Below, in pieces: positions 12,337 through 31,866 of a stretch of DNA of 64,000 nt. The notes beneath the pieces were generated by a model, which saw nothing but the letters and a program-made list of their open reading frames with translations, did no database searches and was not told where the DNA came from. Each line of letters opens with the position of its first letter. Within the stretch, counting starts at the first letter, position 1. The translations under genes and the position numbers were made by a program. Source of the DNA: Stappia sp. 28M-7 (lineage in GTDB: Bacteria; Pseudomonadota; Alphaproteobacteria; Rhizobiales; Stappiaceae); the NCBI RefSeq assembly GCF_014252955.1, contig NZ_JACMIA010000001.1, positions 682,001 to 746,000 on the forward strand, written 5' to 3'.

Positions 12337-13091
12337 TGCATCCGGTAGCCGCCGTTGATGTCCAGCGTGGCGCCGGTCACATAGGCACCATCCGGACCGG
12401 CGAGATAGGAAACGGCTCCGGCGACATCCTCCGGCGTGCCGATCCGGCCCATCGGGATGTTGCGGGAAATCTCCGCGTCCTGGGACGGGTCGAGCGACAG
12501 GCGCAGCATCGGCGCGTCGATCAGCCCGGGGGCGACCGCGTTGACGGTGACGCCGAGGGGCGCAGCCTCGCGGGCACCGGCCTTGATGAGGCCGAGGATC
12601 GCGCTCTTGCTGGCGATATAGGCCGAGCTGGAGCGGTAGCCGCCGAGCTGGGCCGCGACGGAGGAGAAGCCGACGAAGCGGGCGTGATCCAACGGGGCGC
12701 GGGTGCGGTGGCGCAGATACTCGCGCAGCAGCAGGAACGTGCCTGTGCTGTTGATCGTCTGCGTCTTGTCCCACTCCTCGAAACTGGTCTCGGTGAGAGG
12801 ACGGCGCTGGCCGTTCTCGTCGAGGATCAGGATGCCTGCGGCGGCCACGAGCACGTTGACCGGGGCGATGTCCGTCTCGACCTCGCGAAGGCAGTCGATC
12901 ACCGCCTCTTCGCTGCTGACGTCGAGCGCAAGTCCGACATGACCGGTGCCCGGCAGCGAGGCGGCAACCTCGCGCCCCCGCTCGGCGTCCATGTCGGTGG
13001 CAATGATGGAAAAACCGTCCGCGGCAAGCCGCTGAGCGACGGCGCGGCCTATACCGCCTGCCGCGCCGGTGACGAACGCTGTGAGCGCCAT
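12333..13091 (-). CDS. Short-chain dehydrogenase/reductase, first gene of TRAP operon
   Basis: Classical SDR of 252 aa: TGAAGGIGRAVAQRL cofactor loop, an acidic residue after strand two (ATDMDAE, suggesting NAD), FSSVAAQLGG with the catalytic Ser, YIASKSAILG (Tyr-x3-Lys) and a C-terminal TGATLDINGGYRMQ. It is the first gene of the minus-strand operon running through the TRAP genes to the FAD dehydrogenase. Its promoter region is shared with a divergent GntR gene, so that regulator probably controls it. Substrate unknown. Confidence 0.88.
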   Translation of the reverse strand: MALTAFVTGAAGGIGRAVAQRLAADGFSIIATDMDAERGREVAASLPGTGHVGLALDVSSEEAVIDCLREVETDIAPVNVLVAAAGILILDENGQRRPLTETSFEEWDKTQTINSTGTFLLLREYLRHRTRAPLDHARFVGFSSVAAQLGGYRSSSAYIASKSAILGLIKAGAREAAPLGVTVNAVAPGLIDAPMLRLSLDPSQDAEISRNIPMGRIGTPEDVAGAVSYLAGPDGAYVTGATLDINGGYRMQ

Positions 13092-14746: not shown

Positions 14747-15394
14747 TCAGGTCTTCAAGCTGTCGAGGATCAGCCACAGGCCGGACAGGCCATAGACGGC
14801 GGCCAGCGCATAGCGGAAGCCGGTCGAGTTGGCGACCTCCTCGCGTTTCAGCACGCGAGAGGAAAACAGCAGCACATAGGCCGAGAAGATGCACAGGCCC
14901 AGGACGAGGCAACCCAGCACGATCACCAGCGGGGCGTACCAGGGCGAACCGGGCCGCACTCCTGCGGTGATGATCAGGATCCAGCCGACGCTCGCCTTGG
15001 GGTTGAGGATCTGGATCAGGAAGCCGCGCCGGAAATGGCCGGCAAGCCCCGCGATGCCTTTGGCCTGCGGCGTCTCCGGCCCACCGGCCGGCCCCGTTGA
15101 CGGTTTCCAGTGGCGGAAGGTCTTCCAGGCCAGCCACACGAGGTAGCCGCCGCCGGCAAGTCCGACCGCCATCATTGCCGCCGGCATGGCGACCAGCACC
15201 GACGAGAGGCCGAAGGCGGCGAGCAGGGCCCAGGTCTGTCCGGCGGCCATCACGCCGGCCATGACCGCAAACCCGGACGGACGGCCCTGCCGGATCGCCG
15301 TCGTGGCGATCGTCATGTTGCCCAGGCCCGGACTGGCTGCCCCCACGATGTAGATGAGAAACGCCGAGATCATGTTGGCTTCGTCGTAAGTCAT
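14747..15394 (-). CDS. LysE/RhtB-family amino-acid exporter
   Basis: A 215-aa inner-membrane protein with about six helices. LysE-family features: an N-terminal helix ending in a GAASPGLGNMTIATTAIRQG motif (normally PGP in the family, here SPG), GYLVWLAWKTFR in the middle, and a C-terminal KASVGWILIITAGV segment corresponding to the NPK block (ILNPKASVGW). The role is probably efflux of an amino acid or similar metabolite. It stands alone, convergent with the GST gene. A start at M8 is possible. Substrate cannot be predicted. Confidence 0.82.
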   Translation of the reverse strand: MTYDEANMISAFLIYIVGAASPGLGNMTIATTAIRQGRPSGFAVMAGVMAAGQTWALLAAFGLSSVLVAMPAAMMAVGLAGGGYLVWLAWKTFRHWKPSTGPAGGPETPQAKGIAGLAGHFRRGFLIQILNPKASVGWILIITAGVRPGSPWYAPLVIVLGCLVLGLCIFSAYVLLFSSRVLKREEVANSTGFRYALAAVYGLSGLWLILDSLKT

Positions 15395-15857
15395 GACCGG
15401 CAGGGACTTTCGGGACGGAGGGAGGTAGGCGGCGCTTCCTTTACAGGCTCGCCGACAGGTAATGCAAGTTTTGATTGCATGAGTTCATTTGCTCGCGCGG
15501 TGGTTCATGTTTGCCGATTTCTCTTCTTGCAGCGTGATGCGCGCGCGCCTCGACGATTAACGTCAAAACACTTCTTTGGAAGCAAGAAGAAATCAATATC
15601 GTTACAAATTACAATGATGCTGAATTTTCGTAAATAACAATCCTTCGAGCTCTTTGTAATCGTCTTCATATTTGAAGGGACCCACGTCATATATTTAAAG
15701 AATTTCGGCATCAAAAGGCGCGCTGTTAGCCTGATCAAGTGATAAATAGAGTTTTTTCGTCCTAGCGCGATGTATTTTTCGCGAAAAATACTTCGTGCAA
15801 AGAGGTCATCCGACGGTCCGTTCCGGCGACTTGCGGGCTGCGATTGGAGGAAGAGTC
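15395..15857. other. AT-rich leader upstream of the biosynthetic cluster
   Basis: A 463-bp gap without a credible gene. From about 15480 to 15800 it is markedly AT-rich compared with the GC-rich flanks. It must hold the promoters of the LysE gene (minus) and the desaturase gene (plus). A perfect 20-bp palindrome ends it (listed separately). A 77-codon open frame on the minus strand (15505-15738) has low-complexity AT-driven composition and no ribosome site, so I do not call it. The low GC may mark a foreign or silenced promoter region. Confidence 0.55.
15772..15791. promoter_or_regulatory. Perfect 20-bp palindrome, candidate operator
   Basis: GTATTTTTCGCGAAAAATAC is fully self-complementary. 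It lies 66 bp before the desaturase start, where it could overlap the promoter of the cluster. Dyads of this length and AT/CG/AT make-up are typical of dimeric repressor sites. No regulator gene adjoins the cluster, so the binding protein is unknown. Confidence 0.55.
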
Positions 15858-16835
15858 ATGCTGAACAGAGGCGACCAGATCGCTCATCAGATGTTCCAGG
15901 AGGCGCAACTGCCAGGGCAGCCGCGCCAGAAGGTCATCGACAGTCCGCACCTGCACAAGATGCAGAGGATGCACTTTTTCCTGTTCGATGTGCTGCCGAT
16001 TCTCGGCACTGCCTGCGCGATCGTGTTGCTCTTCTTCCATCCGGTCACGTCCGTGGACCTGACGCTCTTCCTCGTCTTCTGGACACTGAGCGGTCTCGGT
16101 ATCTCGATCGGCTATCACCGCCTTTTCACCCATCGCAGCTTCAAGGCCTCGGCGCCGGTCCGGGCGCTTCTCGGCATCTTCGGTTCGATGGCGGGGCAGG
16201 GCGGCGTGATCTCCTGGACGGCGATGCACCGGCGTCACCACGAGCTGGGCGACCAGGAGGGTGATCTGCACTCGCCGAACCTGCACGGCAGTGGTTTTTC
16301 AGGGAAGATCAAGGGCTTCATCCACGCGCACTTCACCTGGATGGTGGCGCATCCCTATCCCAACGTCGTCCATTACGCGCCGGACCTGCTCAAGGACCGC
16401 GTGATGATCTGGGTGAACCGCCACTACTATACCTGGATCATCCTCGGCCTGCTGATCCCGACCGTCATCGGCGGGCTGGTGAGCCAGTCCTGGATGGGCG
16501 CGCTGACGGGCTTCCTATGGGGCGGCATGGTGCGGATGTTCGTGGTCGAGCAGGGCATCTTCGCGCTCAACTCGCTCTGCCACCTGATCGGCCGGCGTCG
16601 CTTCGTGACCGACGATCAGAGCACCAACATCAGCTGGCTCGCGCCCTTCATCTTCGGCGAGTCCTGGCACCACAACCACCATGCCTTCCCCGGTTCGGCG
16701 TCCTTCGGGCTCGCCTGGTACCGCATCGATCCCGGTTACTGGGTCATCCGCTTGCTCGCTCTTTTCGGTCAGGCCTGGGACATCAAGGTCCCGTCGAAAG
16801 AGCAGATCAAGCGCCGGGAAATTCGCAGCGCCTGA
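15858..16835 (+). CDS. Membrane acyl (CoA/ACP) fatty-acid desaturase
   Basis: A 325-aa di-iron desaturase. All three histidine boxes are intact: H87-x4-H92 (GYHRLFTH), H124-x2-HH128 (HRRHH) and H271-HNHH275 (WHHNHH). Four or so membrane helices flank them (for example residues 44-61, 68-85 and 192-208). The layout matches delta-9 acyl-lipid/acyl-CoA desaturases. The ATG at 15858 has TTGGAGGAAGAG before it. As first gene of the cluster, 33 bp before an acyl carrier protein gene, it probably desaturates the fatty chain of the product, possibly while ACP-bound. Confidence 0.88.
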   Translation: MLNRGDQIAHQMFQEAQLPGQPRQKVIDSPHLHKMQRMHFFLFDVLPILGTACAIVLLFFHPVTSVDLTLFLVFWTLSGLGISIGYHRLFTHRSFKASAPVRALLGIFGSMAGQGGVISWTAMHRRHHELGDQEGDLHSPNLHGSGFSGKIKGFIHAHFTWMVAHPYPNVVHYAPDLLKDRVMIWVNRHYYTWIILGLLIPTVIGGLVSQSWMGALTGFLWGGMVRMFVVEQGIFALNSLCHLIGRRRFVTDDQSTNISWLAPFIFGESWHHNHHAFPGSASFGLAWYRIDPGYWVIRLLALFGQAWDIKVPSKEQIKRREIRSA

Positions 16836-16868
16836 CCCGACGCACTTGCAGGAAGAGGAGGAGTTCCC

Positions 16869-17156
16869 ATGGATCACGTTCAGATTGCGGAAAAGGTCGA
16901 CGAGGCCGCCGTATTTGCCTGGCTCAAGACCTACATCTCCAACGTGCTCGGCATGGACCAGGCGTCCATCAAGGGCAGCGACGGCCTCGATTCCCTCGGT
17001 CTCGACTCCGCCCTGACCACTGCTCTGGCGATGGACCTGGAAACCTGGCTCGGCGTCGAAATCCCGCTCGCGATCCTGTTCGAGGCGGAAACGCTCGACA
17101 ACATCGCCGCCGGCGTCGCCCGTGAGGCCGAGCGCCAGCACGCGACGGCAGGATGA
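16869..17156 (+). CDS. Acyl carrier protein
   Basis: A 95-aa carrier. The phosphopantetheine site is LGLDS with Ser47, in the context DGLDSLGLDSALTTALAMDLE. The helix IV region (VEIPLAILFEAETLDNIAAG) is typical of carrier proteins in polyketide or FAAL systems. A strong AGGAAGAGGAGG precedes the ATG. The stop overlaps a possible start of the methyltransferase gene. It probably receives an acyl chain from the FAAL encoded downstream and presents it to the tailoring enzymes. No phosphopantetheinyl transferase is in the window. Confidence 0.88.
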   Translation: MDHVQIAEKVDEAAVFAWLKTYISNVLGMDQASIKGSDGLDSLGLDSALTTALAMDLETWLGVEIPLAILFEAETLDNIAAGVAREAERQHATAG

Positions 17157-17167
17157 GGGCAGATACC

Positions 17168-18055
17168 ATGAAGACGGAACAGCCCGACTACGGCGGCTCA
17201 ATGGCCGCGGTCCAGTACCACTACGATGTCAGCCGCGATTTCTACCGCCTGTGGCTCGACGAGTCGCTCACCTACTCCAGCGCCCTGTGGGAGGGCGAGG
17301 ACGACACGCTGGCCGCCGCCCAGCAGCGCAAGATCGACCATCACCTGCGCGAAGCCCGGGCGGACAAGGCGGAATCCCTGCTCGACGTCGGGTGCGGCTG
17401 GGGCGCGCTGGTGCGCAAGGCCAGCAGCTATTCCGGCCTGAAGCGGATCGTCGGCCTGACGCTGAGCGAGGACCAGGCGGACAATGTGCGCAGTTTCGGC
17501 ATCCCGCAGATCGAGGTGCGCCTCGAGAGCTGGACCCAGCACAAGCCGGACCGGCCCTATGACAGCATCATCTCGGTCGGCGCCTTCGAGCATTTCGCCA
17601 AGCCCGAGGACAGCCGCGAGGTGAAGATCGAGACCTATCGCGACTTCTTCGCCACCTGTTCCAAGTGGCTGACGCCGGGCGGACGCATGTCGCTGCAGAC
17701 CTTCGTCTACGGCACCATGCGCAACGAGGAAGCCAGCCAGTTCATCAACGAGGAGATCTTCCCCGCCGCCGACCTGCCGCGGCTGGACGAGATCGCCGCG
17801 GCGGCGGACGGGGTGATGGAGGTGACCTATCTGGTCAACCACCGCCTGCACTACGCCCGCACCTATGATGCGTGGGCGCGCAACCTGCGCCGGCGTCGCG
17901 ACGAGGCGGTGAAGCTGGTCGGCGAGACCGTCACCGAGCGCTACGAGCGCTATCTCAAGCAGACCTCCATCGGCTTCTACACGGGCAAGATCGGCCTGCT
18001 GCGTATTTCGCTGCGCCCGACCGATCGCCCGGTTTCCGAAACCTCGAGGATGTGA
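17168..18055 (+). CDS. SAM-dependent methyltransferase, cyclopropane-fatty-acid synthase family
   Basis: A 295-aa protein similar to the catalytic domain of CFA/mycolic-acid methyltransferases: AVQYHYDVSRDFYRLWLDES, then SLTYSSALW, SAM motif I LLDVGCGWGALV (residues about 71-82), and SVGAFEHFAKPED, which corresponds to the substrate/bicarbonate site region. It lacks the N-terminal extension of housekeeping Cfa enzymes and so resembles the short CmaA/PcaA type that acts on acyl-ACP. The ATG at 17168 has GAGGGCAG before it; an ATG at 17153 overlapping the ACP stop would add five residues. Following a desaturase, it probably cyclopropanates or methylates the double bond. Confidence 0.85.
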   Translation: MKTEQPDYGGSMAAVQYHYDVSRDFYRLWLDESLTYSSALWEGEDDTLAAAQQRKIDHHLREARADKAESLLDVGCGWGALVRKASSYSGLKRIVGLTLSEDQADNVRSFGIPQIEVRLESWTQHKPDRPYDSIISVGAFEHFAKPEDSREVKIETYRDFFATCSKWLTPGGRMSLQTFVYGTMRNEEASQFINEEIFPAADLPRLDEIAAAADGVMEVTYLVNHRLHYARTYDAWARNLRRRRDEAVKLVGETVTERYERYLKQTSIGFYTGKIGLLRISLRPTDRPVSETSRM

Positions 18056-18198
18056 GTGGAGCCGGGTCGGCGCTTCTCGCCGGCCCGCCACCCGCATCGG
18101 AAACACTACCGGCGGCGCGTGCGCGTGCCGCCGGACGCCGAAGGCTTGCCGTCTTCTTGCCCGCCCAGCGACAGGGACCAGCAACAGGGAACCGTGCC

Positions 18199-19491
18199 AT
18201 GACCGTCACCGCCCCAGCAGCAGAAACCCAGGCAGGCAGCGTTGCTGCCCGCGTGCCGGCCGGCCAGGACATCGTCTTCAACCCGCTCGATCCGGCGTTT
18301 CGTGCAGATCCCTATCCGGTCTATGCGCGCCTGCGCCGCGAGGCTCCGATCCTGCGCACCAAGGGCACGCTAATCCTGTCGCGCTATGAGGACGTGCTTG
18401 CCGTCATGCGCAGCCGCAAGTTCAGCGTCCGCCTGATCCCCGACACGGTGGTCAAGCAGGCCGCCCGTCTGCGGTTCGAGGACTACGGCCAGATGCTGCG
18501 CTTCCTGCAGACCTCCATCGTCTTCACCGACAATCCCGAGCACATGCGCCTGCGCCGGCTGGTCAACCAGGCCTATTCCAACGAGGCGATCAACGCTCTC
18601 CTGCCGGTGCTGACCGACCGGATCGAGCGCCTGCTCGCGGCCCATGCCGCCCGTGGCGGTTGCGACATCATGGCGGACGTCGCCGTGCCGCTGCCCATCG
18701 ACATCCTGTGCGACTGGATGGCGGTGGATGACGAGGCCCGCCCCGGCATTGCCGAGAAGGTCCATGCGGTGCGCTACCTGCTCGACCCGGGCATGATGAA
18801 CCGCTCCGCCTTCCAGAAGGCGGCAAGCAGCATGCGCGAGCTGACCGGCTATTTCGGCGAGCACGCCGCCCGCATCCGCAAGTCGGGCAAGGACACGATC
18901 ATCGCGAGGCTCTGCGAGGCGCAGGTCGATGGCGCGGGCCTGACGGAGGAGGAGATCGCCTTCGCCTGCGTCATGTCTTTTGTCGCCGGGACCGAGACGA
19001 CCCAGTGCCTCATCGGCAATCTCGTCGATGCCATCCTCGATCACCGCGAAAAGTTCGAGGCGCTGGGCGATGACCCGGCCTCGATCCGCTCCGCGATCGA
19101 GGAAGTCACCCGCTACGAGACGCCGCTGCAGTTCACCAAGCGCCTTGCCGTTGAGGATTGCACGGTCGGCGGCATCGACATCTCCGCCGGCGAGCAAATC
19201 CTGCTCTGCCTCGGCTCGGCCAATCGCGACGGCGAGGTCTTCGAGGCCCCCGACGAGCTGCGCTTCGACCGCAAGGGAACCGCTCATATCGGCTTCGGCT
19301 TCGGCATGCATTCCTGCCTCGGCGCACTGCTCGCCCGTGTCCAGGGCGATGCCTTCCTCAAGGTGCTGCTGAACGGCTACGGCGATTTCGAGCGCGTCGA
19401 TCCCGAGCGCCGCTGGCAGGCCAACAGCCTGATCCTGCGCGGCCCTGAGCGGCTGGACATCCGCTTCTCCACGCAACGGGGGACAGCGTGA
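18199..19491 (+). CDS. Cytochrome P450
   Basis: A 430-aa soluble bacterial P450. The heme loop is FGFGMHSCLG with Cys373 as the axial ligand. The I-helix oxygen-binding motif is FVAGTETTQ and the K-helix ExxR is in EEVTRYE. No membrane anchor is present, so it needs ferredoxin partners, which are not in the window. The gap of 143 bp before it has no other gene. Its stop overlaps the thioesterase start (GTGA). In this cluster it presumably oxidises the acyl chain or the amino acid part, probably while carrier-bound. Confidence 0.92.
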   Translation: MTVTAPAAETQAGSVAARVPAGQDIVFNPLDPAFRADPYPVYARLRREAPILRTKGTLILSRYEDVLAVMRSRKFSVRLIPDTVVKQAARLRFEDYGQMLRFLQTSIVFTDNPEHMRLRRLVNQAYSNEAINALLPVLTDRIERLLAAHAARGGCDIMADVAVPLPIDILCDWMAVDDEARPGIAEKVHAVRYLLDPGMMNRSAFQKAASSMRELTGYFGEHAARIRKSGKDTIIARLCEAQVDGAGLTEEEIAFACVMSFVAGTETTQCLIGNLVDAILDHREKFEALGDDPASIRSAIEEVTRYETPLQFTKRLAVEDCTVGGIDISAGEQILLCLGSANRDGEVFEAPDELRFDRKGTAHIGFGFGMHSCLGALLARVQGDAFLKVLLNGYGDFERVDPERRWQANSLILRGPERLDIRFSTQRGTA

Positions 19492-20318
19492 GCGCGAGGG
19501 CTGAAATCTTTGCCAGCGACCGCGCGCGGGCGGCGGTCGATCTCTACGTGTTCCACCATGCCGGTGGCAGCCGCCACTCGTTTGCGGCCTGGCAGTCGAA
19601 GTTTCCCGCGGAAGTCGCGCTGCACCGGGTGCAGCTTCCCGGCCGCACGGCGGAGACCTGCCACGTCCTGCCAAAATGGGCCGGTGCCCTGGTCCCCGGC
19701 CTTGTCCGCAACTTCCTGAAATCCCGCGCGGGATCCCGGCGGCCTTTCGTCTTCTACGGTCACAGCTTAGGTGCGCTGATCGCCTTCGAGCTGACCCGCT
19801 TCCTCCGGCTGATCGGCGAGGACATGCCCGCCGGCCTCGTCGTCGCCAGTCGCCGCGCGCCCCATTGCCAGCTCAGCCACGGCGAGCTGTTCAGCCTTCC
19901 CGATGATGAGCTGGTTGCCGCGCTCCATCGCCTTGGCGGCGTGCCGGAGCATATGCGCGGCAAGGAGGACTGGCTGCGTCAGGTGCTGCCCGTCATTCGC
20001 GCCGACCTGCAGCTGTCCGACATCTATCGCTATGCCGGCCAGCCGCCGCTCGACTGCCCGATGCTGGCGGTGAAGGGCTCCGACGATCCGATCATGTCGC
20101 TGCGCGAGCTCATCGAGTGGTCGGCCCACACCACCGGCAGTTTCACCTGCGGCGAGCTGCCGGGCGCGCATTTCTTCGATGCCGACGGGACGCGCCGCCT
20201 TGAGGCGATCCTCATCAGGACCCTGGCCCGCTGGGCCGAATTCGAACCCGCGGGCACGTCCGCCCGCCCCATGCCCCTTCCGGAGGAGAGACCATGCTGG
20301 ACAAGAGCCGGGATCTGA
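19488..20318 (+). CDS. Type II thioesterase
   Basis: An alpha/beta hydrolase of 276 aa resembling editing thioesterases of NRPS/PKS clusters. Seen are the N-terminal FHHAGGSRHSFAAWQ, LPGR, the nucleophile elbow GHSLG with Ser93, a later Asp in KGSDDPIM and a His in GAHFF, which complete the triad. It starts with GTG coupled to the P450 stop. Its 3' end overlaps the FAAL gene by 25 bp. The expected role is clearing stalled acyl or aminoacyl groups from the carrier proteins; product release is also possible because the NRPS lacks a thioesterase domain. Confidence 0.87.
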   Translation: MSARAEIFASDRARAAVDLYVFHHAGGSRHSFAAWQSKFPAEVALHRVQLPGRTAETCHVLPKWAGALVPGLVRNFLKSRAGSRRPFVFYGHSLGALIAFELTRFLRLIGEDMPAGLVVASRRAPHCQLSHGELFSLPDDELVAALHRLGGVPEHMRGKEDWLRQVLPVIRADLQLSDIYRYAGQPPLDCPMLAVKGSDDPIMSLRELIEWSAHTTGSFTCGELPGAHFFDADGTRRLEAILIRTLARWAEFEPAGTSARPMPLPEERPCWTRAGI

Positions 20319-22093
20319 GCAGCGTCAGCGTTCCCACCCTTTGGGGGCTCCTCGATTCCTACGCGGCCGCGCGGCCGGACGACCGGGCCTTCCTCTATCT
20401 CGGCCCGGAGAATGTCGAGCAGGAGGCGCTGACCTATGCCGAGCTGCACCGGCTGGCGCGCATCTACGGCCAGCGGCTGCGGCAGCACACACGCCCCGGC
20501 GACCGGGCGATCCTGATGTTCCCGACCGGCCTTGCCTTCGTCGTCGCCTTCTTCGCCTGCCATTTCGCCGGCGTCGTGCCGGTGCCGATGGTGCCTCTCA
20601 AGGGCTCGCGCCTGCGCAACACGGTGCATGCCATCGCCGAGAACGCGGCCGCTGCCGTCGTCTTCAGCAATCTCGACCAGGCTTCGCTCGTTCACGCCCA
20701 GCTGAGCCCGCTGCCGAGCTACCGGGACGCCACCTTCATTGCCATCGATCTCGATGAAGGCGGGCCTGCGCCGACCGCCGACCCGCATGAGGCGCTGCCG
20801 CACGAACTCGCCTTCATCCAGTACACGTCCGGCTCCACCTCGGTGCCGCGCGGCGTGATGGTCAGCCATGCCAATCTCGCCGCCAACCTGGAGATGATGG
20901 CCGAGGCCTTTGGCAACGACGACAATCCGACCTATGTCGGCTGGGCGCCGCTCTATCACGACATGGGGCTGATCGCGAACGTGCTGGAGCCCTTCTATCT
21001 CGGCACGTTCTGCATCCTGATGTCCCCCAATCTGTTCGCCCACCGGCCCTGGCTGTGGCCGAAGGCGATCAGCGATTATCGCGCGGTGGTCAGCGGCGGG
21101 CCGAACTACGCCTACGACCTGTGCATCGAGCGCCGCGACCTGATCATTGATGCCGGCCTCGACCTGTCGTCGTGGAAGCTTGCGTTCAACAGCGCCGAGC
21201 CGGTGCGCGCCGGCACCCTGCAGCGCTTCACCGAGGCCTTTTCCGGCATCGGCTTCCGTCCCGAGACTTTCTACCCCTGCTTCGGCATGGCGGAGGCGAC
21301 GCTGCTGATCACCGGCGGCAGCCGGAGTGAGGTGCCGATCCTGCGGCCGGTGAGCCGGGTAGGGCTGGCGCGGGGCGCGGCCGTCGCACCGAGCGACGAG
21401 AAGGACGAGACGCAGGCGATCGGCTGCGGCAGGGCGCTACGCGACGAGACGCTGCGCATCGTCGATCCGGAGACCTTCGACGCCATGCCCGATGGCGAGA
21501 TCGGCGAGATCTGGGTCGCCGGCCCGCATGTGCCGCTCGGATATTTCGACAATGAGGAGGTCTCGCAGCGCACCTTCCATGCCCGCATTGCCGGCGAGGA
21601 AGACGGCGAGCGCTATCTTCGCACCGGCGACCTCGGCTTCGTGCTGGAGGGCGAGCTCTATGTCACGGGCCGCCACAAGGACCTGATCATCGTCCGCGGC
21701 CACAACGTCTACCCGCAGGATATCGAATATGTGGCGGAGCGTGCCTGGCCGGGCCTGAAGAACAATTCCGGCGCAGCCTTCGCGGTCGAGGATCCCGACA
21801 GCGGCATTCAGACGCTGGTGCTCGCCCAGGAAGTGCGGATCGGCAACCGCCAGTCGATCGATATCGACGCGGCGACGCGGGCGATCCGCCAGGAGATCCT
21901 GCGCGAGGCCGATGTCACCTTCCACAAGATCATCCTGCTGGAGCCGGGCTCGATCCCCAAGACCTCGAGCGGCAAGATCCGCCGGGCCGAGACCCGCAAG
22001 CGCTACCTAGACGAGACGCTCGCGATCCTTGCCCGCCGGCCGTCCCAGGCTGCCGAGGCCGAACCGGCAAAGGCGGCGAGCGGCGACGACTGA
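20294..22093 (+). CDS. Fatty acyl-AMP ligase (FAAL)
   Basis: A 599-aa adenylate-forming enzyme of the FadD32/FAAL group. It has the ATP loop YTSGSTSVPRGVMVSHANL (about residues 176-194), the FAAL-typical GWAPLYHDMGLI, FNSAEPVRAGT, YPCFGMAEATL, and the hinge and C-terminal region GDLGFVLEGELYVTGRHKDLIIVRGHNVYPQDIE. The C-terminal lysine lies in KTSSGKIRR. FAALs activate a fatty acid as acyl-AMP and pass it to a carrier protein rather than CoA; the likely partner is the ACP encoded upstream. Overlap with the thioesterase gene suggests coupled translation. A strong terminator follows. Confidence 0.92.
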   Translation: MLDKSRDLSSVSVPTLWGLLDSYAAARPDDRAFLYLGPENVEQEALTYAELHRLARIYGQRLRQHTRPGDRAILMFPTGLAFVVAFFACHFAGVVPVPMVPLKGSRLRNTVHAIAENAAAAVVFSNLDQASLVHAQLSPLPSYRDATFIAIDLDEGGPAPTADPHEALPHELAFIQYTSGSTSVPRGVMVSHANLAANLEMMAEAFGNDDNPTYVGWAPLYHDMGLIANVLEPFYLGTFCILMSPNLFAHRPWLWPKAISDYRAVVSGGPNYAYDLCIERRDLIIDAGLDLSSWKLAFNSAEPVRAGTLQRFTEAFSGIGFRPETFYPCFGMAEATLLITGGSRSEVPILRPVSRVGLARGAAVAPSDEKDETQAIGCGRALRDETLRIVDPETFDAMPDGEIGEIWVAGPHVPLGYFDNEEVSQRTFHARIAGEEDGERYLRTGDLGFVLEGELYVTGRHKDLIIVRGHNVYPQDIEYVAERAWPGLKNNSGAAFAVEDPDSGIQTLVLAQEVRIGNRQSIDIDAATRAIRQEILREADVTFHKIILLEPGSIPKTSSGKIRRAETRKRYLDETLAILARRPSQAAEAEPAKAASGDD

Positions 22094-22099
22094 CCGAAT

Positions 22100-22141
22100 G
22101 CGGACCGGGCCGGCAAGGCCCGTCCGGTCCGCGGATTTTTT
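22100..22141 (+). terminator. Strong Rho-independent terminator inside the biosynthetic cluster
   Basis: GCGGACCGG (22100-22108) pairs with CCGGTCCGC (22124-22132) over an inner GGCC/GGCC stem, followed by GGATTTTTT. It separates the desaturase-to-FAAL operon from the downstream hotdog-to-LnmK operon, so the cluster is probably at least two transcripts. Confidence 0.85.
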
Positions 22142-22169
22142 GCAAACGTGACGAGGTGAAGACAGGTCC

Positions 22170-22595
22170 ATGTCCGAGGAAAAACTGCCGGTTCTCTCGC
22201 GTGACGAGATTGGAGCAGTGATCGGCAAGACGCCTTTCGCGGTATGGGTCGGGGCGAGCCTCGATACCTATCGCTACGGCGAGGTGGAAATTAGCATTCC
22301 CATGCGCCGCGAGCTGACCCAGCATCACGGCTTCGGCCATGGCGCCATCATCGGGTTTCTGGCCGACAGCGCCTGCGCCTGGGCGGCCGCCTCCGTCGCC
22401 GGCGATGTCGTGACCTCCGAATACAAGCTCAACATGTTCGCTCCCGCCGTCGGCCAGACGCTGGTCGGCCACGGCCAGGTGCTCAATTACGGCGGGCGCC
22501 ATGCCGTCTGCCGCGCCGATGTCTACGCCCTTTCGGGCACGCGCAAGAAGCTGGTGGCGACGGCGCTCGCCACGATCTTCCAGGTCAAGCCGTAA
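22170..22595 (+). CDS. PaaI-type hotdog thioesterase
   Basis: A 141-aa single hotdog domain. The active-site helix reads HHGFGHGAIIGFLADSACAWAA (about residues 51-72), with the HG-x-GHG and Asp typical of PaaI/YdiI acyl-CoA thioesterases, then TSEYKLNMFAPAVGQTLVG. It starts 28 bp after the terminator run. In the cluster it may hydrolyse an acyl-CoA or acyl-carrier intermediate, or release the product. Family call is good; role is inference. Confidence 0.82.
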   Translation: MSEEKLPVLSRDEIGAVIGKTPFAVWVGASLDTYRYGEVEISIPMRRELTQHHGFGHGAIIGFLADSACAWAAASVAGDVVTSEYKLNMFAPAVGQTLVGHGQVLNYGGRHAVCRADVYALSGTRKKLVATALATIFQVKP

Positions 22596-22634
22596 GGCCG
22601 GCCTTCCGACCCACCCCAACCAGGAGTTCGCGTC

Positions 22635-23660
22635 ATGCAGCACGTTGAAAGCACTCTCGGTCCCGATGTCCCGATCGTGGTCTGGTCGCCGCGCGACGGC
22701 GCCCGTTTCAGCCTCGACGAGCTCGCCGCCTATCTTGCCGAGTCCAAGGACCGGATTTCCGCGCAGCTCGATGAAAACGGTGGCGTCCTGCTGCGCGGGT
22801 TCGACTGCGTTCACACGTCCAGCGACTACCAGAAGGTCCTCGACGTGGTCGCGCCCGATCTGATGGACTATGTCGGCGGCACCTCGCCGCGCAAGGTCGT
22901 CAACGGCCGGATCATGACCGCGACCGAGATCCCCGGGTCCTACTCGATCCCGCTGCACCAGGAAATGTCCTACACGGACAATTCGCCCGACCGCATCTCC
23001 TTCTTCTGCGAGCGGCCGCCGGAAGAGGGCGGGCAGACGACCATCGGCGACATGCGCGCGATCACCCGGGCCATCGACCCGAAGGTCCGCGAGCGCTTCG
23101 AGGTCCATGGCGGTGTGCAGCTCTGCCGCAACCTGCCGCTGCCGGAGAAGGTCGCCTCCCGGCCGGGCGTGCCCAAGACCTGGCACGAGGTTTTCGCTAC
23201 CGACCGGCGCGAGGACGCCGAGAAGGTCGCCGCCAAGTCCGGCTGGCGCTACGAGTGGCTGGACGACGGATCGATGCAGCTGTGGCAGGAGGTGCGGCCC
23301 ACCACCCGGCAGCACCCGCGCTCCGGCGACGATGTCTGGTTCAACCAGGTGCACATCTTCTCGCCCGTCTCCGCGCTGAAATGGGCCCGGCTCGACGGCC
23401 GCACCGAGGCCGCCGACCGGTTGGCCCGCGCGCTCGAGGAGGCGCCGCAGCTTCTCGACCACATGCGCTACGGCGACGGCACGGAGATCGCGGCCGAGGA
23501 CGTGCTGCACATCTACGACGTGCTGCTGGAGAACGAGAAGCCGGTGCAGTGGCAGAAGGGCGACGTGCTCGTCCTCGACAACATCCTTGTCGCCCATGGC
23601 CGCAAGCGCTTCTCCGGCGACCGCAGCGTTCTGACCGCGCTGATCCAGCACGCCCACTGA
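22635..23660 (+). CDS. TauD/TfdA-family Fe(II)/2-oxoglutarate dioxygenase (SyrP-like)
   Basis: A 341-aa non-heme iron oxygenase. The metal triad is His108-x-Glu110 (PLHQEMSY) and distal His321 (NILVAHGRKRFSGDRSVL), with the following Arg expected to bind 2-oxoglutarate. Glu in place of Asp in the HxD/E motif and overall length match the SyrP group, which hydroxylates carrier-bound aspartyl residues in NRPS pathways. ENGGVLLRGFD near residue 47 is a family landmark. A typical ribosome site (CAGGAG) precedes the ATG. Hydroxylation of the NRPS-loaded amino acid is the most likely role, unproven. Confidence 0.87.
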   Translation: MQHVESTLGPDVPIVVWSPRDGARFSLDELAAYLAESKDRISAQLDENGGVLLRGFDCVHTSSDYQKVLDVVAPDLMDYVGGTSPRKVVNGRIMTATEIPGSYSIPLHQEMSYTDNSPDRISFFCERPPEEGGQTTIGDMRAITRAIDPKVRERFEVHGGVQLCRNLPLPEKVASRPGVPKTWHEVFATDRREDAEKVAAKSGWRYEWLDDGSMQLWQEVRPTTRQHPRSGDDVWFNQVHIFSPVSALKWARLDGRTEAADRLARALEEAPQLLDHMRYGDGTEIAAEDVLHIYDVLLENEKPVQWQKGDVLVLDNILVAHGRKRFSGDRSVLTALIQHAH

Positions 23661-23675
23661 CCCTCGTGCCCAAGG

Positions 23676-23696
23676 CCCGGCGGCGCGCCCGCCGGG
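23676..23696 (+). other. Intercistronic hairpin
   Basis: An 8-bp GC stem (CCCGGCGG / CCGCCGGG) lies in the 64-bp gap between the dioxygenase and aldolase genes with no T-run after it. It is probably an mRNA-stabilising element or a weak attenuator rather than a terminator. Confidence 0.4.
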
Positions 23697-23724
23697 TCAA
23701 GCCCCATCCGAACGGGAGACAGCC

Positions 23725-24534
23725 ATGCTGAAGACGGTTTCCAGCACAAAATCCGGCGAGGCGCAGGACGAGATGGCCGCCGAGGAGCGGCGCATGCGCG
23801 TCCAGCTTGCCGAGTTCTATCATCTCGTTGCCTATCTCGGCTGGACCGAGATGATCTTCAATCATATTTCCTTGCGTGTTCCGGGGCCCAACCGCCACTA
23901 CCTCGTCAATCCCTTCGGGCTGCACTACGAGGAGATCACGCCGGACAATCTCGTGAAGGTCGACGTCGAGGGCAACCTGGTCGAGCCGTCGGACTATCCG
24001 GCCAACCGGACGGGCTTTGCCCTGCACGGGGCGATCCACGAGGCGCGCGACGACATCCACTGCATCGCCCACACGCACACGACGCCGATTTCCGCGATCG
24101 CGCTGAAGGAAGGCGGCTTCACCTATGACGACTTCTATGGTGCGCAGCTCTTCGGCCGCGTTGGCTACCACGCCTTCGAGGGCGTGACGGTCTTTGCCGA
24201 CGAGCGTCCGCGCATGGTCGCCAGCCTTGGCGACAAGAACGTGCTGGTACTGCGCAACCACGGCATTGCGGTCGGCGAGCGCGACGTGCCGCGCACCTTC
24301 TGGCTGCTCTACAACGCGCAGCGCGCGGCCGAGATCCAGTGCCAGGCCGGCATGCTGCCCGGTGCCAATACCCCTCTCACCGACGAGGTGCGGCTCCGCA
24401 GCGCGGCGGCGGCCGAAGAGCTGGTCGCGGGCGATGCCTTCGCCGCCAAGCTCTTCGACGCGATGGTACGCAAGGTGCGCCGTGATCGTGGTCCGCTCTG
24501 GGCCAGGGATACCGGAACCGACCGGCTCGAATAG
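23725..24534 (+). CDS. Class II aldolase/adducin-family protein
   Basis: A 269-aa protein with the AraD/FucA fold. Visible are WTEMIFNHISLRVPG near residue 40, the zinc-binding HTHTT (IAHTHTTPISAIAL, about residues 112-125), YHAFEGVTVFADE, and LRNHGIAVGERDV with the third metal His. Many members of this branch are found in secondary-metabolite clusters and decarboxylases, where the reaction is unknown. It stands 64 bp after the dioxygenase gene. It might perform a retro-aldol or aldol step on the hydroxylated amino acid, but no specific substrate is shown by the sequence. Confidence 0.82.
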   Translation: MLKTVSSTKSGEAQDEMAAEERRMRVQLAEFYHLVAYLGWTEMIFNHISLRVPGPNRHYLVNPFGLHYEEITPDNLVKVDVEGNLVEPSDYPANRTGFALHGAIHEARDDIHCIAHTHTTPISAIALKEGGFTYDDFYGAQLFGRVGYHAFEGVTVFADERPRMVASLGDKNVLVLRNHGIAVGERDVPRTFWLLYNAQRAAEIQCQAGMLPGANTPLTDEVRLRSAAAAEELVAGDAFAAKLFDAMVRKVRRDRGPLWARDTGTDRLE

Positions 24535-24584
24535 GCGGCGTCCCGCCGGCCTGCCGACCCCGAAATCGCGGAGGATCATGTCCC

Positions 24585-25529
24585 GTGACACTGCAAGAGA
24601 GAAACCGGTCCCGGTCCGGGCCAGGGGTGGCGTCCCACCGGGACCGCGCAACAGGCTGGGCAAGCACCCACCGGGTCCATCTCGGCATGCCGCATCTCGC
24701 CTTCAGCGGCCTGTCGGAGGCATGGCTGCTGAAGGAGCTGGGCCATCGCCACTGGATCCAGCTCGCGCGCATGGCGGAATACGACTTTCCCGACTTCTAT
24801 GACGAGGCCGGGCACACGGTCTATGCCGCGTTCCGCTCCGTGCGGATCGAGGGCGCGCGCTTCGATCTGGCCAAGGAAAACGACACGCTGGTGATCCGCT
24901 CCAGCCTGTTCCGCCTGTCGCGCACCCAGGTGCAGAGCGAGCACCGGCTGAGCATCGGCGGTGCCCTGCTCGGTGTGGTGCGCATGGTCTCGGTCTTCGT
25001 TCACCGCAACGGCCAGACGTCGAACCGGTCGGTGGTCCGCGTCGAGATCCAGGGTCTGCCGCCGGTCTCCGAGGCCAGCAAGCCGAACCTGGCGAACGGC
25101 GGTGTCGACGGCACCTTGTGGGCCTGGGACGAGGGGGCGATCGTTGCCGCCGATCATCGGCCGCAACTGTTCTTCCCCTGTCCCTCGCAGGACTTCAACG
25201 GGGCTGGCTTTCTCTACTTCGCCAATGTCCCGGCCTTCGTGGACCGGGCGGAGTGGAACGTCGATCCGGACTTTGCGCGCAACGCCATCACCCGTTGGCG
25301 CAGCGTCGCCTATCACGCCAATATCGATCCCGGCGAAGCCATCTCCATCGAGCTCGTCGACTTCGAGCGGGACGACCTGTTGTGGCGGCACCGCTGCCGG
25401 GTGACCCGGGCAACTGACGGCAAGCACATGGCGGATGTCCTGAGCGTGCGCAGCCGCGTCGAAGTGGCCGGATCGCGGCGCGTGGCCGCCCGGCAGGAAG
25501 TCGGCTGCGCCGACCGGCCCGACTGTTGA
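24585..25529 (+). CDS. LnmK-like / Pnap_2097-family double-hotdog biosynthetic protein
   Basis: A 314-aa protein resembling the LnmK/Pnap_2097 family. The N-terminal hallmark is RVHLGMPHLAFSGLSEAWLL followed by ELGHRHW (about residues 30-57); the second half has PCPSQDFNGAGFLYFANVPAFVDRAEWN, the start of a second hotdog domain. LnmK in leinamycin synthesis is a methylmalonyl acyltransferase and decarboxylase that loads propionyl onto ACP. The start is GTG at 24585, with GGAGG 9 nt upstream; a nearby ATG at 24578 is in another frame. Whether this protein is an acyltransferase, decarboxylase or dehydratase here is unknown. Confidence 0.62.
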   Translation: MTLQERNRSRSGPGVASHRDRATGWASTHRVHLGMPHLAFSGLSEAWLLKELGHRHWIQLARMAEYDFPDFYDEAGHTVYAAFRSVRIEGARFDLAKENDTLVIRSSLFRLSRTQVQSEHRLSIGGALLGVVRMVSVFVHRNGQTSNRSVVRVEIQGLPPVSEASKPNLANGGVDGTLWAWDEGAIVAADHRPQLFFPCPSQDFNGAGFLYFANVPAFVDRAEWNVDPDFARNAITRWRSVAYHANIDPGEAISIELVDFERDDLLWRHRCRVTRATDGKHMADVLSVRSRVEVAGSRRVAARQEVGCADRPDC

Positions 25530-25852
25530 CCATCTGACGGGACAAGGGCAACCGGGCGAGGAGCGGCCAGGCGAACGGCGCGCTCGCCCGGCAGGGGGTC
25601 TTTGTTCCCATCCAGAAGTTGCATTTCCTGAAATATGGAGTGCGAACAGCGGTTGGTGATAGGGAAAATTTACATCGCCACGTTGTCGTGATACCCCTCT
25701 TCAGATCCTGCATAAGTGCGGAACATCTGTAATCTCAAACTCTTTCAAGAAAAAACCCGTTCAGAGCGCCTGAGGGCCGAATTGATGCCGTCTTGCATCG
25801 CGGTTTCCTACGTCCTGCAGAAGGGTTTGGTTGCGGTCATCGGGAGAAGGGT
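25530..25852 (+). other. Intergenic region before the NRPS gene
   Basis: A 323-bp gap. A 9-bp stem (CCGGGCGAG 25552-25560 / CTCGCCCGG 25583-25591) with a 22-nt arm follows the LnmK-like gene and may end its transcript. The part from about 25610 to 25770 is AT-richer and probably holds the NRPS promoter; I see no confident -35/-10 pair. The NRPS ribosome site is GGGAGAAGGGT just before 25853. Confidence 0.45.
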
Positions 25853-28800
25853 ATGACATATTCGGTGTTGCGGCGGATCGAGGAGCTTGCCTTCGGTCAA
25901 GGTGACCGCGTCGCGATGGAAGAGGGCGCCCGCCAGCTGACCTATGCCGGCCTGTACGAGGCGATCCGCAGGGCCGGCCGCCAGGGCCTGTCCCGCTCGG
26001 CCCGCGGGCTTGTCGGGATCAATGGGCGTCCCTCGATCGAGTCCGGCGTCGGCATTCTCGCCGCCATGGCATCGGGCGATGTTGCCGTTCCGGTCGACGG
26101 GCGCTTGCCGCTCGCCCGCCAGCAGGCCCTTCTCGACTGGTGCGACACCTTGAGCGACCATCAGGAGATCGCCGGCATCGTCGCCGAGCTGGACGGCAAG
26201 GCGCCGCAGCCGGATGCGCGCGGCTGCATCGCGCCGCGCGCCCCGCGTCAGGCCGCCTACATCGCCTTCACCTCCGGCACCACCGGCGAGCCCAAGGCCA
26301 TCGAGGGCACGATGGAGGGCATCGACCATTTCATGGCCTGGCAGTCGGGTCTTGTCGGCAGCTTCTGCGAGGTGCCGCGCGTCTCCTGGCTGACGCCGCT
26401 GTCCTTCGACGTGATGTATCGCGACCTGCTGTTGCCGCTGGTGACGGGGGGCACGCTGGTCATTCCGGATGCGGAAGCCGGGTTCAACATCGCCTCCGGC
26501 TGGCAATGGCTGACGAGCGAGCGGATCGACATCGCCCATGTGGTGCCGTCAATCGTGTCCGCGTGGCTTACCTCCGGCGATCTGCCCAAGCTCGACGTCA
26601 AGGCGCTGTTCTTCGCCGGCGAGCCGCTGAAAGTGCCGTTGGTTGCCGCGCTGCGCGGCCGCTATGGCGGACGCATCTACAATCTCTACGGCCCGTCCGA
26701 GGGCACGATGGCGAAGTTCTGCCGCCTGATCGACGAAGACTGTCCGACGAACGGGACGCTCTATCCCGTGGGCCGCCCCATCGCCGACGACGTGACATTC
26801 GAACTCGCCGACAATGGCGAGATCGTGCTCGCCTCGCCGCATCTGACCAACGGCTATCGCCAGCGCGACGGCGGCGCCGATCCGTTTCCGCAGGTCCGGC
26901 CCGGCTGGTACGCCTATCGTACGGGCGACAGGGGCGAGGTCATCGGCGGTGATCTCTTCCTGCTCGGCCGTCTCGACAACCAGATGAAGGTCAACGGCAT
27001 TCGCATCGAGGCCGGCGAGGTCGAGCGCCTTGCCGAAGGATGCGAGGGCGTCGAGCGGGCGGTCGCGGTCAAGCTGTCGCCTCCCGAGGTGCCTGGCGAG
27101 ACGCTTGCCCTGTTCTGGCAGGGCGCCCCGGACCGGGAACCGGCCCTGCGCGAGCGCCTTTCGGACGCTTTGCATCCGGCGGTGATGCCCTCGCTCTACA
27201 CGCATCTTGCCAGCTTCCCCGTCACCTTGAACGGCAAGGTCGACCGCAAGGCGCTCGTCGCGGACGCAGCCGCCTTCCTCGCGGCCGGACAAGGAGACCT
27301 CTCCGGCGACATCCATGGCGACCCAGCCGAGCGCCACGTCCAGCAGGTGATCTCGCGGGTGCTGCGCCGCCCCTGCGGCCTCGATACGGATTTCATCGGC
27401 CTTGGCGGCAATTCGCTGATGTTCGGCCTGATCGCCTTGCAGCTGGAGACGGCCTTCGGCATCGCCATTCCCCAGTCGCGCTTCTACGAGGCGGGCACGC
27501 CGCGCGCCATCGCTGCCTGGCTCCTCGCCAATGGCGGGGAGCTGCGTGAGGGGGCGGCAGACGGGAACGAGGTCCAAGCCCCCGCATCCTTCGACGTGGC
27601 GGACGGGGACTACCGGCCGCTCACCAGCCGTCAGCAGACGATCTACGACATCTTCTGCAAGGACATCTTCGGCGCCGCTATCAACATGACCCTTCAGATG
27701 CCGTTCCGCGCTGCCGAGGCCGAGCGGCTGAAGCGCGTCTTGCTGCGCCTGATCGAACTCAACGACTGCTTCCACCTGCGCTTCCGCCGGAATGGCGACA
27801 CGCTGCTGCAGACCATGGTCTCGAACGGTTTCGGCCCGGCCGATTTCGAGGAGGTCACGGCCGACGATGCAGAGTTCGATCCTCTGTCCACCGCCTTCGG
27901 CGAGCGGACCTTCGACCTCGACGGGGCGCGGCCCTTCCGGATCCTGCTGCTGACCAGCCCCTCGGGCGCGGGACGTCTCGTCCTGTCCATGCATCACCTC
28001 ATCAGCGACGGCATGTCGCGCGAATACATCCGCCGCGACATCGAGGATGCGCTGGCCGGGGCGCCGGTGCCGGTGCGCAGCCCCTTCCGCGCGGCCATCG
28101 CCGCCGAGACCGGCGAGAGCAGGGCCCGCGCCACCGCCTTCTGGCATGCGCATATCGATGGTGCACCGCCGATGCCGCGCTTCGTCTCCGGCCTCGACCG
28201 TAGGAATCTCTCGGCGCGTATGCTGACCTTGCCGCTCGGCGTCGATCACGGCGCGCTGCTTGCCCGCGCTCGTGCGCTCAACGCCAGTGTCTTTCCCTAT
28301 CTGATGGCGCATTTCTACCGGGCGATGGCCGCCCATTCCGGGGTCTCGGACCTGATCATCCGGGTCACCACCCATGGGCGCTATCGCCCCGAACTGCTCG
28401 ACACGCTGGGCCTGCTGTTCAGCGCCGTCCCGCTGCGGATCAACGGGGCGGGGCAGAGCACATCGGCCATCGTCGCCAAGCTGTCGCGCATGCTGGAGGC
28501 CGCGCCCGGGCATCAGGACGTGTGCTTCCGCGATCTTGCCCGTCTGGTCGGCGAGCCGGACGACGAGCATGTCCACCCGGTCACGGGGGTCAGCTTCGCG
28601 CTCGATGGCTACGACGTCAGCGAGGCGATGCCCGCCGGTCTTTCCCTCGATGCGCGTTCGCAGGTCATCCGCGCCTCGTTGCCGCATGAGGCGCTGGTCT
28701 TCGCGCGGACCTACAGCGATGGCTGCGTGCTGCGGTTTCTCTACCGCTCCAAGGCGTTTTCCGACAGCGACATCCAGTCGATTGCCGCGCATATGCGCGA

Positions 28801-28885
28801 AACGATCTCGCGGGAACTGGCGGAGGCCGAAAGCGAGAACCTGGCGGAAATCGAGATGGGCCGCCGCGCGGCGCAGTGCTCCTAG
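25853..28885 (+). CDS. Non-ribosomal peptide synthetase, single module A-PCP-C
   Basis: A 1010-aa protein. Adenylation domain about residues 1-470: A3 AFTSGTTGEPKAI (138-150), A5 NLYGPSEGT (277-285), A7 YRTGD (355-359), A8 GRLDNQMKVNGIRIEAGEVE, A10 LNGKVDRK with Lys462. Carrier domain about 490-560 with FIGLGGNSL, Ser521. Condensation domain about 588-1000 with HHLISDG (His714/715, Asp719) and a later LLFSAVPLRI. Aligning by eye to GrsA suggests a specificity code D-V-R-H-F-A-L-M-A, unlike standard codes I know. The order A-PCP-C, with C last and no thioesterase domain, is unusual. It presumably joins an amino acid to the FAAL/ACP acyl chain. Its stop shares the bases CTAG with the convergent protease gene. 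Confidence 0.93.
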   Translation: MTYSVLRRIEELAFGQGDRVAMEEGARQLTYAGLYEAIRRAGRQGLSRSARGLVGINGRPSIESGVGILAAMASGDVAVPVDGRLPLARQQALLDWCDTLSDHQEIAGIVAELDGKAPQPDARGCIAPRAPRQAAYIAFTSGTTGEPKAIEGTMEGIDHFMAWQSGLVGSFCEVPRVSWLTPLSFDVMYRDLLLPLVTGGTLVIPDAEAGFNIASGWQWLTSERIDIAHVVPSIVSAWLTSGDLPKLDVKALFFAGEPLKVPLVAALRGRYGGRIYNLYGPSEGTMAKFCRLIDEDCPTNGTLYPVGRPIADDVTFELADNGEIVLASPHLTNGYRQRDGGADPFPQVRPGWYAYRTGDRGEVIGGDLFLLGRLDNQMKVNGIRIEAGEVERLAEGCEGVERAVAVKLSPPEVPGETLALFWQGAPDREPALRERLSDALHPAVMPSLYTHLASFPVTLNGKVDRKALVADAAAFLAAGQGDLSGDIHGDPAERHVQQVISRVLRRPCGLDTDFIGLGGNSLMFGLIALQLETAFGIAIPQSRFYEAGTPRAIAAWLLANGGELREGAADGNEVQAPASFDVADGDYRPLTSRQQTIYDIFCKDIFGAAINMTLQMPFRAAEAERLKRVLLRLIELNDCFHLRFRRNGDTLLQTMVSNGFGPADFEEVTADDAEFDPLSTAFGERTFDLDGARPFRILLLTSPSGAGRLVLSMHHLISDGMSREYIRRDIEDALAGAPVPVRSPFRAAIAAETGESRARATAFWHAHIDGAPPMPRFVSGLDRRNLSARMLTLPLGVDHGALLARARALNASVFPYLMAHFYRAMAAHSGVSDLIIRVTTHGRYRPELLDTLGLLFSAVPLRINGAGQSTSAIVAKLSRMLEAAPGHQDVCFRDLARLVGEPDDEHVHPVTGVSFALDGYDVSEAMPAGLSLDARSQVIRASLPHEALVFARTYSDGCVLRFLYRSKAFSDSDIQSIAAHMRETISRELAEAESENLAEIEMGRRAAQCS

Positions 28886-31799: not shown

Positions 31800-31866
31800 T
31801 GCGATCCCCCTTTGCGCCGTCTCGCGGTTTCCGTTCCCTGTCTCGATATCCGCCCAGCTTGCCCGG

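Follow-up and report, generated by a model that had tools for sequence, protein, structure and literature searches.

Several described pathways each share part of the gene set considered here. Isonitrile lipopeptide pathways that follow the logic of ScoA-E and Rv0097-0101 are built from five protein classes, namely a fatty acyl-AMP ligase (FAAL), an acyl carrier protein (ACP), a hotdog thioesterase, a TauD oxygenase, and a nonribosomal peptide synthetase (NRPS). LnmK of leinamycin biosynthesis, a double-hotdog protein, makes propionyl-ACP for a polyketide step. The AMB cluster of Pseudomonas aeruginosa (ambABCDE) is a precedent for a LysE exporter, an NRPS of adenylation-thiolation-condensation (A-T-C) order, and 2-oxoglutarate oxygenases, by which an amino acid is made while bound to a carrier (as described in parts of PMC4357302 and PMC8968710). 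The combined presence of FAAL, fatty acid desaturase, and ACP domains has been used as evidence of alkyne potential (in sections of Mullins et al., PMC8406139), and the jamABC and polyyne cassettes covered in those sections (cepacin, caryoynencin, and protegencin), which carry a FAAL, a membrane desaturase, a stand-alone ACP, and a thioesterase, are horizontally mobile. Cyclopropane fatty acid (CFA) synthases and mycolic acid cyclopropane synthases hold bicarbonate through a Glu, a His, and a Tyr (parts of PMC11387697 and PMC9821293); sections of PMC9821293 describe these ligands as strictly conserved and essential, and sections of PMC11387697 report that mutating them lowers activity. Here we describe a locus of Stappia sp. 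28M-7 that shares features with each of these systems: eleven plus-strand genes at 15858-28885 and a divergent LysE gene, lying in a window of 64,000 nucleotides (the whole stretch analyzed; contig NZ_JACMIA010000001.1, positions 682,001 to 746,000).

We read this locus, with moderate confidence, as a twelve-gene biosynthetic cluster of two modules: a tail module of desaturase, ACP, methyltransferase, cytochrome P450, thioesterase, and FAAL genes (DES-ACP-MT-P450-TE-FAAL) and a head module comprising the hotdog, TauD, aldolase-fold, and LnmK-like genes, the A-T-C NRPS, and the LysE exporter (Table 1). Every gene listed in a preliminary description of the locus was recovered at its position by Pfam and NCBIfam profile matches, the dioxygenase called SyrP-like there being placed at the level of the TauD family. 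The boundary drawn there left out the LysE gene; we regard this gene as probably the twelfth member because it is present in the same six Stappia genomes as the rest and near a related cluster in Thalassospira.

The case for a single unit comes from conservation and selection. A search with the LnmK-like protein gave matches in 9 of 61 genomes (the strain's own and those of relatives), six of them close and within the genus, and the eleven genes keep the same order in 6 of 14 Stappia genomes, our strain included. The methyltransferase and the LysE protein (each at E ≤ 1e-40) were found in the same 6 of the 14 as the LnmK-like gene; the other three matching loci (L015-L017) held no other cluster biosynthetic gene within the 20 kb taken. 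Among 72,556 plasmid records searched, only NZ_CP024200.1 of Thalassospira marina carries the full set of eleven, in unchanged order and with 50-75% identity. A LysE orthologue (56%) lies near them with a LysR gene between, and a phosphopantetheinyl transferase gene lies about 5 kb away; in Stappia sp. 28M-7 the genome's one PF01648 phosphopantetheinyl transferase match is outside the window. This plasmid was the sole record at 60% identity or more both for TauD (75 matched at E ≤ 1e-20) and for FAAL (184 matched at E ≤ 1e-60), the distribution in Thalassospira being that of one record. Ratios of nonsynonymous to synonymous substitution (dN/dS) for the twelve genes were 0.00-0.18 against S. 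indica and 0.12-0.34 against Stappia MMSF_3263, where the NRPS was highest; against Thalassospira, dS was not computable for six of the twelve, and for the other six it was at least 2.2. All twelve genes are under purifying selection, and this selection, together with the gene order kept in Stappia and Thalassospira, speaks for more than a chance assembly. Co-conservation in relatives, on which the preliminary description had staked its proposal of one biosynthetic cluster, is present, and that proposal is supported.

From the genomes sampled, the cluster looks rare. At E ≤ 1e-60 the TauD protein matched 1 of 385 genomes of the class and 1 of 398 of the phylum, in both samples the strain's own genome. 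It had no match in phage records (E ≤ 1e-40) or in viral contigs. A separate scan of genome contigs, made with one protein and with patterns whose reach is limited to close relatives, returned four Stappia loci.

The active-site patterns tried are kept in all seven orthologues with few exceptions: Thalassospira lacks one thioesterase pattern and, like MMSF_3263, one FAAL pattern, and its C-domain HH motif has Tyr in place of the first His but retains the second. Motifs found in 7/7 include the desaturase His boxes (HRLFTH, HRRHH, and HHNHH), LG(L/M)DS of the ACP, GHSLG of the thioesterase, PLHQE and AHGR of the TauD protein, and the heme Cys motif FGFGMHSCLG of the P450. Because this last motif is kept throughout, we read the gene as encoding a presumably active P450; its top NCBIfam model is a P450-derived glycosyltransferase activator, which, like the other P450 models, stays below its cut-off. 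For the FAAL gene, 13 solved sequences match at E ≤ 1e-60, among them FadD32, FadD23, and other named fatty acyl-AMP ligases, and its closest relatives are FAALs rather than coenzyme A (CoA) ligases; the top solved matches, labeled "Polyketide synthase" and "Saframycin Mx1 synthetase B," we take to be FAALs as well. FAAL models of NCBIfam also outscore CoA-ligase models, none reaching its own cut-off. These matches agree with the earlier suggestion that FAAL and ACP would supply an acyl chain.

The tail half recurs in other genera. The methyltransferase matched 33 plasmid records at E ≤ 1e-30, and the seven top-ranked (44-74% identity) were opened: Thalassospira, Pseudonocardia alni, Rhodococcus opacus, Polaromonas JS666, Sphingobium indicum B90A, Sphingobium TomMM15, and Tistrella. 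On all seven plasmids an ACP and a FAAL adjoin the methyltransferase or sit within a few kilobases of it, the Rhodococcus and Tistrella ACPs being identified by tblastn only (35% and 29%). Pseudonocardia alni has DES-ACP-MT-P450-TE-FAAL in the Stappia order (55%, 35%, 57%, 39%, 35%, and 42% identity, respectively), and Rhodococcus opacus has DES-ACP-MT-P450, then an open reading frame (ORF) without a Pfam match in the thioesterase slot, a FAAL, a hotdog gene, and a second P450. Tistrella has DES-ACP-MT plus a FAAL. Polaromonas JS666 has a FAAL, a transposase, DES-ACP-MT, a second desaturase, and two genes of polyketide synthase (PKS) type; on its plasmid 2 (L049, 3753-18674) the acyl module and ketosynthase genes lie amid IS1380-like, ISL3, and IS21 insertion sequences. 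On both Sphingobium plasmids, ACP-MT-FAAL comes directly after an autoinducer synthase gene (PF00765, 89 and 86 bits), with no desaturase match at either locus; the ORF preceding the synthase gave only weak helix-turn-helix matches, below cut-off. These loci might make an acyl-homoserine lactone with an edited chain. LuxI enzymes usually use acyl-ACP, which supports a modified acyl-ACP as the output of the module. One of the 26 weaker matches was opened, that of Streptomyces NBC_00536; tblastn found no FAAL or ACP at this locus, which has a ketosynthase context and a small protein of unknown family nearby.

Gene content across these plasmids makes the cluster look modular: a portable module for the acyl-ACP tail and, joined to it, one for the amino-acid head. 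We propose, tentatively, that the tail half is a horizontally mobile module of a kind not described before (FAAL, ACP, and a methyltransferase of the CFA family with Gln in place of the bicarbonate His; desaturase, P450, and thioesterase optional) that would prepare a C-methylated acyl-ACP without the bicarbonate-dependent cyclopropanation mechanism and offer it to interchangeable heads, these being the NRPS of Stappia and Thalassospira, the LuxI-type enzyme of Sphingobium, and a PKS in Polaromonas.

The methyltransferase shares with CFA and mycolic acid cyclopropane synthases the fold family, the region that binds S-adenosylmethionine (SAM), and the Glu and Tyr ligands, but all 13 aligned module methyltransferases (six from Stappia, seven genera in total) have Gln where the bicarbonate-binding His is expected, and the enzyme is paired with an ACP and a FAAL. 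Near the ligand site, Stappia, Thalassospira, and Sphingobium have Ser where the other four genera have Cys. The solved mycobacterial enzymes 1l1e and 1tpy align cleanly with His at the site (the 5z9o alignment is gapped there). The non-module Streptomyces methyltransferase has the His and carries Phe in place of the Tyr, so variation at the ligand sites is not confined to the module. On the same evidence, His-to-Gln is a trait common to seven genera rather than a one-strain loss, and it lowers the case for cyclopropanation.

Which chain the tail module makes can be weighed against two alternatives. The earlier proposal, an N-acyl amino acid with a cyclopropane chain, we now consider doubtful. 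The enzyme does match the CMAS family at 216.7 bits, two of the three ligands are kept, Gln could in principle hold bicarbonate, and Labrenzia makes free medium-chain cyclopropane fatty acids (parts of PMC6213206); yet Gln occupies the site in all 13 module enzymes aligned, where 1l1e, 1tpy, and the one non-module enzyme examined have His, and the conservation and mutant effects reported for these ligands also speak against it. Cyclopropane formation is accordingly not supported as it was stated. Labrenzia is, we presume, a marine relative. An alkyne-type tail, in which FAAL, desaturase, and ACP would act as a jamABC cassette to give a terminal alkene or alkyne and the methyltransferase would work on the head or another site, is unlikely, although all three of the domains treated as evidence of alkyne potential are present together (PMC8406139, in part). 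The jamABC and polyyne cassettes differ in lacking a CFA-family methyltransferase and an amino-acid head module, and the seven-gene polyyne cassette has two further desaturases and a rubredoxin, whereas our cluster has a single desaturase; no rubredoxin pattern (CxxCG...CxxC(G/A)) was found in window positions 15400-29000 or in the Thalassospira region, the Streptomyces positive control being found. A polyyne-type cassette lies on a linear plasmid of Streptomyces sp. ADI95-16 (L078, 5183-12763), with a FAAL, three desaturases, an ACP, an alpha/beta hydrolase, a rubredoxin, and a P450, the last being a gene seen in some such cassettes. Two of its three desaturases are 36-38% identical to the Stappia desaturase (the third gave no match), and in a small tree, rooted at the midpoint, these two form a group (support 0.997) with the desaturases of Stappia, Thalassospira, Pseudonocardia, and Rhodococcus, which favors the alkyne alternative; the Polaromonas and Tistrella desaturases fall outside the group. 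Against it, the gene that stays with ACP and FAAL across the opened genera is the methyltransferase and not extra desaturases, and both Sphingobium plasmids keep ACP-MT-FAAL without a desaturase match.

How the head is joined to the tail raises further alternatives. The NRPS has one A domain and is a one-module enzyme, as first described. Its best solved C-domain match is PvdL (E 1.5e-20), where the matched stretch may be a C or an epimerization (E) domain, and AmbB is among the 12 solved matches (E 8.6e-8). The PvdL pathway starts with an acyl chain. In our enzyme the C domain follows its own T domain, as in AmbB, and groups with no subtype, and the N-acyl product proposed earlier is not supported as stated. 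An aminoacyl ester is possible, if rather unlikely: the aminoacyl-T domain would act as donor, with transfer to a P450-made hydroxyl on the ACP-bound chain and the amino group left free, as for AmbB. The A-T-C order, the AmbB match, the LysE gene beside both the cluster and the AMB genes, and AmbB T-C structures with the T domain in a donation conformation (parts of PMC8968710) are consistent with it, and by that analogy the amino acid rather than the fatty chain would be the donor and a chain hydroxyl the likely acceptor. The PvdL match and the LuxI-type enzyme of the Sphingobium version, an N-acyltransferase by family knowledge, lean instead toward an amide. The AMB cluster itself differs in having a second NRPS (AmbB and AmbE), two oxygenases, and no fatty-acyl genes; ours has one NRPS and one TauD gene. 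An isonitrile lipopeptide pathway is very improbable, even though the same five protein classes are present and FAAL, hotdog, and TauD genes are contiguous. The solved structures closest to the TauD protein are At3g21360 and 9yut, which place it in an At3g21360/clavaminate-synthase-like group and not with ScoE-type oxygenases; three solved sequences reach E 0.001, none named isonitrile synthase, and ScoE structures are, we assume, present in the PDB. The hotdog protein is PaaI-like, a subfamily difference as well, and the cluster adds desaturase, methyltransferase, P450, aldolase-fold, and LnmK-like genes. That two unrelated gene sets merely adjoin is exceedingly improbable: the front half does occur elsewhere without the head half, but eleven genes keep their order across two orders of Alphaproteobacteria, with LysE tracking alongside.

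For the two-module cluster, the gene content and order, the conservation, the selection, the motifs, and the recurrence of the tail module elsewhere are observed, and we infer every chemical step of the following pathway. The FAAL would activate a free fatty acid and load it onto the stand-alone ACP, where the tethered chain would be desaturated, C-methylated by the CFA-family enzyme, and oxidized by the P450, with the type II thioesterase clearing stalled carriers. The A domain would load one amino acid onto its own T domain, the TauD enzyme would oxidize it there, and the aldolase-fold enzyme would cleave or decarboxylate an intermediate. The C domain would then join head and tail, a thioesterase would release the product, and LysE would export it. 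For the aldolase-fold protein the fold named earlier stands and the aldolase role is uncertain; its 31 solved relatives include 3ocr, adducin, TqaM, and NovR, the last two of which we take to be oxidative decarboxylases, and it could be an aldolase, a decarboxylase, or an oxidative decarboxylase. Of the oxidized lipo-amino-acid product first predicted, the cyclopropane and N-acyl parts are not supported as stated, and an acyl ester had been named as an option; judging by the genes, cyclopropane, methyl branch, amide, and ester may all still apply.

The LnmK-like and hotdog roles are the least certain steps. Besides its family scores (Table 1), the LnmK-like protein keeps, invariant in 8 sequences, the residue aligned with LnmK Tyr62, which we take to be catalytic, its numbering fitting the 319-residue chain 6x7l. 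At 15 non-cluster LnmK-family loci, tblastn with the window proteins found no head gene besides the LnmK-like one; other matches there were a P450 (31%, L040), a FAAL fragment (24%, L035), a thioesterase (28%, L046), and ABC genes (L017 and L039), L046 coming from a match below the family cut-off where the LnmK-like protein itself gave no match. The four annotated Pnap_2097 plasmid loci opened besides Thalassospira are nitrilase/radical-SAM clusters, two of them, in Caballeronia and Paraburkholderia (L038 and L040), being nitrogen-starvation clusters with the gene beside methylmalonyl-CoA mutase. This neighbor would fit an LnmK-like enzyme acting on methylmalonyl-CoA.

Several observations weigh against the pathway and the boundary as we draw them. 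There is no PKS gene in the cluster, which differs in this from the LnmK setting and leaves the LnmK-like role unexplained. The A-domain pocket, read by eye from alignments with a position rule, is DVRVFALMA(K), identical in 7/7 NRPSs; we know of no described code that it matches, and the amino acid is not predictable, although the Arg at position three would be compatible with an acidic side chain. Four cluster C domains form a separate long branch among 29 references (midpoint-rooted) without starter, LCL, DCL, or E grouping; the references, taken from six plasmid loci with one short domain dropped, were labeled by gene context (4 starter, 1 E, 1 DCL, and 23 unlabeled or LCL-like). The product may be an ester or contain several units. 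Each occurrence of the head half that we saw also had the tail half beside it. Finally, in 5 of the 6 Stappia genomes, type I secretion genes lie next to the cluster and may be linked to it, our placing them outside being a judgment and not a proof.

We judged these secretion genes (36948-40161) to lie outside because they are not adjacent in Stappia MMSF_3263 (L014) or in Thalassospira. Matches to them occur in two genomes without the cluster (G001, 49%; G008, 64%) and elsewhere in a third (G003, 63%), which may be paralogues; the ABC match has one internal stop codon in 3 of 8 matching genomes (L061, L062, and L064). Between the NRPS and the secretion genes, window positions 28882-36901 hold three trypsin-like proteases and three ORFs without a Pfam match; elsewhere in Stappia, four genomes have the ABC gene almost directly after the NRPS. 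The serine proteases (28882-33243) were also placed outside, the one searched being present in 2 of 14 genomes, of which one lacks the cluster. Within the cluster, the eleven genes are spaced from a 25-base overlap up to 143 bases, except for 323 bases before the NRPS, which may therefore have its own promoter; a sigma-70 consensus scan, which says little for this organism, gave no promoter-like site in 15300-29200. The LysE and desaturase genes diverge across 463 bases. The NRPS probably starts at ATG 25853 rather than at the mechanical ORF start of 25793, and the methyltransferase probably starts at 17168, later than its mechanical ORF start, because the upstream residues (the first 20 in the NRPS) are poorly conserved among the seven orthologues.

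Table 1. Genes of the Stappia sp. 28M-7 cluster (window positions), followed by the Sphingobium module loci (positions within each locus)
Feature	Position	Strand	Evidence and remarks
LysE-family exporter	14747-15394	-	PF01810; divergent from operon; probable 12th cluster gene
Membrane fatty-acyl desaturase (DES)	15858-16835	+	PF00487
Stand-alone acyl carrier protein (ACP)	16869-17156	+	PF00550
CFA/CMAS-family SAM methyltransferase (MT), His-to-Gln at bicarbonate ligand	17168-18055	+	PF02353, 216.7 bits
Cytochrome P450	18199-19491	+	PF00067; best solved match E 4.8e-56
Type II alpha/beta thioesterase (TE)	19488-20318	+	PF00975
Fatty acyl-AMP ligase (FAAL)	20294-22093	+	PF00501
PaaI-like hotdog thioesterase	22170-22595	+	PF03061, TIGR00369 above cut-off; closest solved 3e1e
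TauD-family Fe(II)/2-oxoglutarate oxygenase, HxE motif	22635-23660	+	PF02668
Class II aldolase/adducin-fold protein	23725-24534	+	PF00596; NF005451 above cut-off
LnmK/Pnap_2097-family protein	24585-25529	+	TIGR04099 281.2 bits (cut-off 125), TIGR04098 234.7 (cut-off 100)
One-module NRPS, A-T-C	25853-28885	+	AMP-binding, PP-binding, Condensation in that order
Module locus, S. indicum B90A pSRL2 (L050)	8240-12788		
Module locus, Sphingobium TomMM15 (L053)	8215-12663		

Stappia is a genus with few characterized natural products: a BiG-SCAPE comparison of 17 assemblies gave 181 clusters in 52 families and 22 singletons, of which only the sesbanimide and ectoine families matched MIBiG, and one NRPS cluster of that study's strain is listed as unknown (sections of PMC12997852). 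In the literature searched, by titles and abstract openings and with subscription journals mostly outside it, we found nothing on the present cluster and, in agreement with the preliminary description, no characterized pathway with this gene set; a search on its tail components in combination led to a review of mycolic acids. The cluster is real and conserved, and within the sets searched we saw its gene combination nowhere else; most of its parts are of known kinds.

It brings together two chemistries not seen together in the pathways compared, the editing of a fatty chain on a dedicated carrier protein and the oxidation of a single amino acid on an NRPS, in a small testable system of 12 genes with one A domain and one ACP. 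The most interesting part is the portable tail module with its Gln-type CFA methyltransferase. The recurring ACP-methyltransferase-FAAL block predicts further sites at which edited acyl chains would be made, in Sphingobium possibly for an unusual acyl-homoserine-lactone signal, and the Gln-type enzymes of the module offer a natural test of whether the CFA family needs its bicarbonate His.

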